Shown one piece after another: positions 5,915 through 9,219 of a DNA stretch of 11,197 nt. Each line of letters opens with the position of its first letter. The stretch's first letter is position 1. The position numbers and the translations under genes were made by a program. The notes beneath the pieces were generated by a model, which was not told the DNA's origin, searched no databases, and saw nothing but the letters and a program-made list of their open reading frames with translations. The stretch lies in the NCBI GenBank assembly GCA_028679485.1, contig JAJRBL010000252.1:1-11197 (forward strand), given 5' to 3'. The stretch is from Methanospirillum sp. GTDB taxonomy: Archaea; Halobacteriota; Methanomicrobia; Methanomicrobiales; Methanospirillaceae.

Positions 5915-5947
5915 ACATTATTTCACTTTCACCCCGTTTATTTCAGG

Positions 5948-5993: not shown

Positions 5994-7217
5994 ATGGCAG
6001 CAGACGCATACAATCTTGAGAACATTCCCGGTGTCGGACCGACGACTGCAGAGAAGCTCCGTGAAGCCGGGTATGAATCGGTAGAGAAGATAGCGCAGGC
6101 AAGCACAACCGAACTCTATGAGACAGCCGAGATCGGGGAGGCAACGGCTCGCAAGATGATCAAGTGGTGTACCAGCCAGGTAAGCCCGGATTCATCGGCC
6201 TCTGCTGAAGCTCCTGTCACAATTCAGGAAGATAACCCCAGTATGACTGCACGGAGAATGGATATTGAGGATATCCCGGGTGTCGGCCCGGCGATTGCTG
6301 AAAAACTCAGGGATGCCGGGTACCTGACCGTTGAAAGCATCGCTACGACGCTTCCTTCGGCCCTTGCCGAGGCGGCTGAGATAGGGGAGACCACGGCGAA
6401 GAAGATGATCAAGTGGTGCCGTGATCAGGCTGATATCGGGGGGTTCAAGACCGGCACCGACGTCTTCGAACAACGGCTGAAGGTGAAGAAACTCAAAACC
6501 CTTGTTCCCGAAGTGGACGAACTCCTTGGAGGAGGGTTTGAAACCCAGGCTATCACCGAGATGTACGGTGAGTTCGGTTCAGGTAAATCCCAGATTGTGC
6601 ACCAGATGGCAGTCAATGTCCAGTTGCCTGAGGAACTCGGAGGCCTTGGCGGATCGGTTATCTACGTGGATACCGAGAATACATTCCGTCCTGAACGTAT
6701 CGAACAGATGGTAAAGGGGCTTGAGGTAGAAGACGCCGATCCAAAGGAGTTTCTGAAGAATATTCATGTTGCACGTGCACAGACTTCAGATCACCAGATG
6801 CTCCTGATCGAGACGTCCCGCGAACTTGCCAAGGAGTTGAAGGATGCAGGCAAACCCGTAAAACTGGTGATTGTCGACTCCCTGACCAGCCTTTTCAGAT
6901 CGGAATATGCGGGACGGGGTACCCTTGCAGAACGCCAGCAGAAACTGAACCGGCACATGCATGATATCTTCAAGCTCTGTGATGAATACAATGCCATCGG
7001 CCTCGTCACGAACCAGGTCCAGTCCAATCCGGCAGTATTCTTTGGTGATCCCACCAAACCAATAGGAGGAAATATCGTGGGTCATACGGCAACATTCCGG
7101 GTATACCTGCGTAAGAGTAAAGGAGGTAAGCGTATCTTCAAACTGGTTGACAGCCCGAACCTCCCTGAAGGCGAAGCCACGTTCCTCGTTGAAGAAGGCG
7201 GCCTCAGATCCTGCTGA
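5994..7217 (+). CDS. radA: RadA recombinase with duplicated N-terminal helix-hairpin-helix domain
   Basis: The archaeal Rad51/RecA-family recombinase, an ATPase that forms filaments on single-stranded DNA and carries out strand exchange in homologous recombination. The core is standard: an FKTG polymerisation-type motif (about 148-151), [12 protein letters not shown], Walker A GEFGSGKS (192-199, Lys198), and Walker B LVIVDS (Asp295). These are followed by the FRSEYAGRG segment, NQVQSNP, and [23 protein letters not shown] for the DNA-binding and ATP-cap regions. The length is odd: 407 residues against about 310-325 for the family. The excess is a second copy of the N-terminal HhH DNA-binding domain. 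Residues 7-63 and 90-146 align without gaps at 35 of 57 identities, joined by an acidic, Ser/Ala-rich linker. The 324-residue form starting at Met84 would have normal length. The start at 5994 has a TATA box and a ribosome site upstream. The phosphatase gene follows 21 bp later. Confidence 0.96.
6012..6182 (+). repeat. radA: First copy of duplicated HhH domain in radA
   Basis: Codons 7-63 of radA, running from [10 protein letters not shown] through AEKLREAGY and AEIGE to KMIKWC. This is the extra copy relative to ordinary RadA. It shares 35 of 57 residues with the second copy and a 17-bp identical stretch (6153-6169 matching 6402-6418). IPGVGP is the hairpin turn that contacts the DNA backbone in HhH domains. 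Confidence 0.92.
6261..6431 (+). repeat. radA: Second copy of duplicated HhH domain in radA
   Basis: Codons 90-146 of radA, running from [10 protein letters not shown] through AEKLRDAGY and AEIGE to KMIKWC. It is joined directly to the recombinase core as in ordinary RadA, so this is the positional equivalent of the family's standard domain. The offset from the first copy is exactly 249 bp. Met84 (base 6243) stands in the same position relative to this copy as Met1 does to the first. Confidence 0.92.
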
Positions 7218-8223: not shown

Positions 8224-9219
8224 TCATTGTTTTTCTCCTGGTTTAATTCCAGCCCGGCGAAGGGTCTTTTCAATCGACCAGTGCCCGCGATTGAATTCGC
8301 TTTGGAGAATCAGGGTAATATTCTTCTTTTTTTCCCCGGCAACAGCAAGTTCATGGTACCGGCTACGAAGCAGATCTATCTCTTCCGGTGACCAGGGCCT
8401 TCGGGTGAGGGGTGCATTCTCCTGTTCGGGCACCCGGATCGAATCCATCATGAATCCGGTCTTTAGTGCTGCTATCTCTTCAATCCGTGCATCAAACATC
8501 TCTGGAGAGAGTTCGAACCCGGTGACCTGCCGGTTCAGCCCTATTGCCGCCCGGGCGGTGGAGAATCCCCCGAGAAAGAGATCACAGATCATGTCCCGTT
8601 CATTGCTGCTGTACTGGATGATCTTGGTTAAAAGAGCGAGGGGAAGTTCGTTCTTGTTTTTAACCCTTCCCGGTTTGTACTCCCTGTTTATGATCCAGAC
8701 ATCCTCGCGATCCTGGTAGTTCAGGGAACGGCCATCCTCGTTTTTTTCAGAGAATACAAACCTGCATTCAGCATTAAAAGTTCTTTTCCCCCCTGGTTTT
8801 GCATAATAAAGGATGTGGTAATGTGAGGATACGTACTTGCGGCTGGTAAAAACACCGAAGTTATACCGCCAGACCAGATGGTTTACCTCTTCAAGACAGG
8901 TCTGGTGAAGGGCGCTTAAGATCTGCACGAGGTTGGTGTATCCGGAAACAATGTAGATGGATCCGCCGGGCCGCAGGATCCGTGCAGCCTGTTCTATCCA
9001 CTCCCTACTGAATCTCTCGTAATCAGATGCCCTGATCTCCACATACCCGCCGGTAACGAAGGATTCATCCCGGTTGTAATGCCGGTGAAGGGTATCGCCC
9101 TGGATACCGTATGGGGGATCGGTGATGATGAGATCAATGGAATTATCCGGAATTACCTGTGATCCTGCAATACAGTCTCCGTTATAAAAAACACCCCCCT
9201 GGATGGCAACAGATCGCAT
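8224..9219 (-). CDS. Orphan beta-class DNA methyltransferase (N6-adenine or N4-cytosine)
   Basis: A 331-residue S-adenosylmethionine-dependent DNA methyltransferase that modifies an exocyclic amino group. The catalytic motif IV, TDPPYG (33-38), precedes the SAM-binding motif I, DLFLGGFS (213-220), with LNRQVTGFELSPE after it. This order defines the beta class. DPPY is compatible with either adenine-N6 or cytosine-N4 methylation. Residues about 95-115 (ILRPGGSIYIVSG) are the usual strand-helix after the active site. The C-terminus (about 272-331, with RPWSPEEIDLLRSRYHEL and HWSIEKTLRRAGI) is not part of the catalytic fold and looks like a Myb/SANT- or HTH-type DNA-binding helix bundle. No restriction endonuclease is in the window. 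The gene starts 3 bp after the stop of the HTH-CBS gene (TGATCGATG), so the two are probably cotranscribed and coupled. The recognition site is unknown. Confidence 0.88.
   Translation of the reverse strand: MRSVAIQGGVFYNGDCIAGSQVIPDNSIDLIITDPPYGIQGDTLHRHYNRDESFVTGGYVEIRASDYERFSREWIEQAARILRPGGSIYIVSGYTNLVQILSALHQTCLEEVNHLVWRYNFGVFTSRKYVSSHYHILYYAKPGGKRTFNAECRFVFSEKNEDGRSLNYQDREDVWIINREYKPGRVKNKNELPLALLTKIIQYSSNERDMICDLFLGGFSTARAAIGLNRQVTGFELSPEMFDARIEEIAALKTGFMMDSIRVPEQENAPLTRRPWSPEEIDLLRSRYHELAVAGEKKKNITLILQSEFNRGHWSIEKTLRRAGIKPGEKQ

Follow-up and report, generated by a model that had tools for sequence, protein, structure and literature searches.

A RadA recombinase with two tandem N-terminal helix-hairpin-helix domains in Methanospirillum and two sister genera

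The window analyzed here, the whole 11,197-nucleotide contig JAJRBL010000252.1 of a Methanospirillum sp. (assembly GCA_028679485.1), carries radA, the gene of the archaeal recombinase RadA. The product bears two N-terminal (HhH)2 (HhH, helix-hairpin-helix) domains, termed copy 1 and copy 2, where the usual form of RadA has exactly one (Table 1). Pfam HHH_5 matched the protein with a whole-protein score of 95.6 (cut-off 27) in two significant stretches, alongside one Rad51 domain, and the order of an N-terminal (HhH)2 domain followed by a Rad51 ATPase domain is that of RadA. Two significant HHH_5 stretches were likewise found in three double-domain relatives (L003, L012, and L039), and one in the single-domain RadA proteins L045 and L109. 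Residues 88/90–405 fitted two RadA models, NF003301 at 536.6 bits (cut-off 259) and TIGR02236 at 525.4 (cut-off 361.15), and the Walker A motif, GEFGSGK at residues 192–198, occupied columns invariant across 29 aligned RadA proteins. A first-pass annotation, made from the sequence alone, had described two ungapped HhH copies (residues 7–63 and 90–146, 35 of 57 identical) in a protein of 407 residues, with IPGVGP, AEKLR-x-AGY, AEIGE, and KMIKWC in both copies and an intact recombinase core. The alignment reproduced the copies exactly, the shared motifs were confirmed, and the scores of both RadA models, far above their cut-offs, agreed with an intact core.

Table 1. Features of the radA locus, in positions of the window.
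Feature	Position	Strand	Basis
radA, recombinase of 407 residues, N-terminal (HhH)2 domain doubled	5994..7217	+	ATG start, stop included; open reading frame, Pfam, RadA models
Extra (HhH)2 domain, copy 1, residues 7–63	6012..6182	+	Pfam, copy alignment, predicted fold, dN/dS
Variable linker, residues 64–89, mostly predicted disordered	6183..6260	+	pLDDT, dN/dS
Standard RadA (HhH)2 domain, copy 2, residues 90–146	6261..6431	+	Pfam, RadA models, copy alignment, domain tree
Interdomain segment and RecA-type ATPase core, residues 147–407, conserved	6432..7214	+	Profiles, PDB chains, alignment
W58-C59 of copy 1, clade-specific pair	6165..6170	+	12/12 distinct copy-1 domains, 0/70 distinct single domains
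W141-C142 of copy 2, clade-specific pair	6414..6419	+	11/11 distinct copy-2 domains, 0/70 distinct single domains
ATG of Met84, start place of single-domain radA genes	6243..6245	+	Alignment of double sequences
Promoter element TTCACTTTCACCC upstream of TATA-like CTTAAATAC	5922..5934	+	Contains most of published TTTCACTTTCA element

Sequence and predicted fold agreed in identifying each copy as a RadA-type (HhH)2 domain, and the nearest relatives of copy 1 were RadA N-terminal domains. The linker had predicted local distance difference test (pLDDT) values <50 at residues 67–87 in one prediction and 66–87 in another. The same double architecture was common to 12 distinct sequences, the window's included, and is therefore not a chance occurrence. 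At the DNA level the copies shared 108 of 171 bases, with only 23 of 57 third codon positions identical, indicating that the duplication is old. Compared with the archaeal RadA structures from Pyrococcus (1pzn), Sulfolobus (2bke), and Methanococcus (1t4g), copy 2, the interdomain segment and the ATPase core were alike, whereas the window protein was longer (407 residues vs. 349, 324, and 322), with the extra (HhH)2 domain and its flexible linker, and had W-C in both copies. Eukaryotic RAD51 and DMC1 have a homologous core and an N-terminal lobe of this type, but only one lobe in the chains compared. No second lobe was seen in 50 RadA, RAD51, and DMC1 chains of the PDB, each of which matched in one stretch beginning at query residue 78 or later.

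Copy 1 was present in 13 of 41 genomes, namely 11 of the 12 from the same genus (including the window's own, and one in which it was split over two contigs), G017 and G012. Of the others, 26 had a single-domain RadA, one of the same genus held only a 3′ radA fragment, and one had no radA match. Copy 1 thus spans Methanospirillum and two sister genera, so that it does occur in related species, as the first-pass annotation had proposed to check. Among 110 RadA loci examined by script, the double form was confined to Methanospirillum-type loci, the cultured species M. stamsii among them (L032), a Methanospirillaceae bin (L012/L037), and Candidatus Methanofilum arcanum (L013/L039). The RadA of the latter (L039:5004-6422) had 473 residues, with a glutamate-rich linker about 65 residues longer. 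A search of the order matched 218 of 232 genomes, with no further double form among the matches listed (E ≤ 2.3e-156); with the two-domain query, 386 of 392 genomes of a phylum sample were matched, again with no further double form among the matches listed. Of the matches listed for this sample, four began at residue 1–2 (the window, two Methanospirillum, and G017) and the others at residue 56 or later. The phylum sample did not contain G012, and archaea beyond the phylum were covered through the PDB chains only. Within this range the double domain is not ordinary across archaeal RadA; had it been so, the earlier claim would have been undone.

One deposited label weighs against this restriction to a clade, since L073, from a bin named Methanospirillum sp., encodes a single-domain RadA. 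However, its core was identical to that of L020 and grouped with L069 and L092 (Methanoregulaceae-type rows), away from the double clade, and the deposited name is for this reason probably wrong.

The window comes from a fragmented bin, 64.64% complete, in which an assembly or binning artefact might be suspected. Yet the same architecture was found in independent genomes, including two assembled as single contigs of 3,393,136 and 3,544,738 bases, and of the 57 third codon positions 34 are unlike in the two copies. Assembly error was accordingly rejected; an artefact now has a negligible probability, and the earlier preference for an old duplication over such an error was upheld. The agreement of independent assemblies also speaks against the refuting case named there, in which reads from this genome would fail to support the first 249 bp.

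In a tree of the ATPase core, from which the trait itself was left out, the 12 double sequences formed one clade (support 100/99) among 63 rows, 62 of them loci (duplicates L032–L039 and all but 11 of the loci above L060 were omitted). In a domain tree built from 94 rows and 59 columns (L107_s omitted), copies 1 and 2 together formed one group (100/92), in which copy 1 was a well-supported subgroup (99/84) and copy 2 a weak one (76/59). Once the K-W-C columns were taken out, a free search did not recover this joint group, and the tree in which the copies were kept together was 0.20 log units better (approximately unbiased test, p 0.518). The core clade and the joint grouping of the copies are most simply explained by one old intragenic tandem duplication of the 5′ part of radA in the stem of Methanospirillum and its two sister genera, rather than by assembly error. 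The duplication itself we regard as close to certain. On the simplest reading it took place after the W-C change or together with it; a later exchange between the copies would look alike.

Two other sources of copy 1 were considered. The haloarchaeal ribosomal protein L32e, which is not a recombinase, bears the same domain type as an N-terminal HhH extension and ranked second among the solved relatives of copy 1 (9l94, E 5.7e-9), but Pyrococcus Rad51 was closer (E 1.9e-12). As the L32e domain scored below that of RadA and the copies group together, an origin from another protein is disfavored, rather than excluded, because the joint grouping was lost without the K-W-C columns. A viral source was rejected: IMG/VR held 14 loci with RadA relatives (L147–L160), 12 of which included the N-terminal part, with one HhH each (very weak in L158) and no second significant HhH domain, while two were cut off. 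In their best segments these viral RadA-like recombinases shared 31–63% identity with the query, and L150 and L151 (the same protein) had a long, charged N-terminal extension.

Purifying selection on copy 1 is strong. Across 10 Methanospirillum coding sequences, the median pairwise ratio of nonsynonymous to synonymous substitution (dN/dS) was 0.058 in copy 1 (residues 7–60), as against 0.032 in copy 2, 0.025 in the core and 0.617 in the linker (residues 61–86), with synonymous sites near saturation in the widest comparisons (mean proportion of synonymous differences about 0.6). Within two Methanospirillum subgroups the copy-1 value was 0.057 and 0.045. The low ratio marks copy 1 as a working part of the protein, and the first-pass view that the duplication is maintained with both copies under selection held. 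That copy 1 is instead a neutral or slightly harmful leftover of the duplication, with no function of its own, would fit with the standard make-up of the rest of the protein, but is very improbable given the contrast with the adjoining linker and its retention in three genera.

Residue patterns bear on what copy 1 may do (counts cover 109 of the 110 loci, L028, with VPGVGP, being left out). At the equivalents of Sulfolobus RadA K27 and K60, which are needed for duplex binding, copy 1 had K in 11 of 12 distinct domains and R in one at the first position, and K in all 12 at the second; with this single K-to-R change, both copies keep these lysines. Duplex binding by copy 1 may be inferred from these two positions. 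Copy 2 and the core would still build a normal RadA filament, and copy 1, joined by a flexible tether some 25 residues long (some 90 in one genus), would form an additional, mobile module for duplex binding at the surface of the filament. Each protomer would thereby have two points at which to hold or sample double-stranded DNA while homology is sought, with copy 1 widening duplex capture. We consider this role of a tethered second duplex-capturing module the most likely one, with moderate confidence. The effects suggested in the first-pass annotation, a higher affinity for duplex DNA or an altered filament spacing and homology search, are likewise conjectural. A bolder version, offered tentatively, is a natural RecA-family recombinase in which every protomer of the filament has a fixed and a tethered lobe for duplex binding. 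Such a filament could bind two stretches of duplex simultaneously and seek homology in a manner closed to single-lobe RadA or RAD51; the W-C pairs might dock the lobes on each other.

Copy 1 also has a signature of its own, with Y42 in 12 of 12 and E28, K32, and Q35 in 11 of 12 distinct copies, all absent from the common letters of copy 2 and of single domains, which suggests a function by now somewhat different from that of copy 2. Together with the W-C pairs, which lie near the end of the last helix in both copies, these near-fixed residues could point to a module for protein–protein or self-interaction, contacting RPA, another repair factor or a neighboring protomer and setting filament nucleation or length rather than capturing DNA. 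Of 80 loci, 77 had an RPA-like gene near radA on the same strand. The structural matches included a histone tail in complex with the N-terminal lobe of RAD51 (8xbw), so that such lobes can bind proteins. Both duplex-binding lysine positions are nevertheless kept in copy 1, and we consider an interaction role possible but rather doubtful.

Met84 was kept in 11 of 12 double sequences and lost in Candidatus Methanofilum, and in 11 aligned double sequences it was the only position between C59 and I91 to show no variation. Its conservation at the old start fits a tandem duplication that left the former start codon inside the gene. The RadA of Candidatus Methanofilum arcanum had no Met at the ancestral start place. 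Starts at both the first ATG and Met84 could in principle yield two isoforms, the double-domain protein and a standard 324-residue RadA, in mixed filaments. The conservation of Met84 at the start place of single-domain genes is consistent with this, and complementarity to the anti-Shine-Dalgarno sequence before Met84 exceeded the mean of the other in-frame Met codons in 11 of 11 sequences. This signal vanished against all codons of the same gene, where 25–75% of positions equalled it in the window from −16 to −4 and 14–73% in a 20-base window; this wider control leaves a start at Met84 without support from Shine-Dalgarno complementarity. With the residue also lost in Candidatus Methanofilum, two isoforms appear unlikely.

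The first ATG of radA was preceded by a TATA-like element and a Shine-Dalgarno-like AGGGA. The promoter has TTCACTTTCACCC ahead of the TATA-like element, in line with what has been published for ultraviolet-induced haloarchaeal genes, whose element is TTTCACTTTCA, and for M. hungatei radA (PMC2556686). The exact pattern TTCACTTTCRCCC occurred in 12 copies in each of two single-contig Methanospirillum genomes, against 1 and 0 for the backwards control. Of 23 such sites read (L124–L146), 17 lay within 76 bases of an open reading frame start picked by script, some of which may be spurious, and one lay inside a reading frame. The reading frames at these sites include radA, a 598-residue OB-fold RPA-like protein, a 361-residue RNase_H_2 protein and seven look-alike proteins of 140–192 residues; of the eight reading frames searched against Pfam, the three that were look-alikes had no match. 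The pattern may mark a DNA-damage regulon.

Five genome-contig loci (L032–L036) were 82–89% identical to the window's RadA over the whole protein; the deposited name is Methanospirillum for four of them and Methanomicrobiales archaeon for the fifth. Besides the RPA-like gene, a phosphoglycolate-phosphatase (PGPase)-like gene accompanied radA in 74 of 80 loci, and aminotransferase, LysA-like, PRC-barrel, CBS/HTH, and NOG1-like genes were mostly present in the same order where contigs reached. L039 retained just the RPA and PGPase neighbors, and L076 and L108 were rearranged downstream. These widely common neighbors identify the window gene as the orthologous radA and not a paralogue; one further match in the window's genome was RadB-like in length and range. 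The double-domain RadA described here is the ordinary, single-locus archaeal recombinase of a Methanospirillum-type archaeon. A lone DNA methyltransferase gene (N6_N4_Mtase, 8224–9219, minus strand) lies between the PRC-barrel and CBS/HTH genes, with a CcrM-like match far below the cut-off. At E 1e-15, three of the loci L032–L111 had it, namely L032, L033, and L034, which suggests that it was inserted in a single subgroup of Methanospirillum.

No description of a double-domain RadA was found in the open-licence PMC literature. In a 2007 paper (PMC1964548), “two HhH” for RadA denotes two motifs within one domain, and the mechanism is called not fully understood. Acidic repeats of NusA and (HhH)2 repeats of topoisomerase V were among the structural matches of the tandem model, an analogy of architecture only, as the host proteins are unrelated. 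Repeated (HhH)2 domains within one protein occur in both. The contribution of the N-terminal lobe of RadA and RAD51 to homology search is not settled. The double-domain RadA is a real, selected domain duplication, most likely of single origin, in a central recombinase, and a lineage in which the lobe is doubled and both lobes are selected constitutes a natural experiment on the number and reach of lobes in duplex capture and displacement-loop formation.
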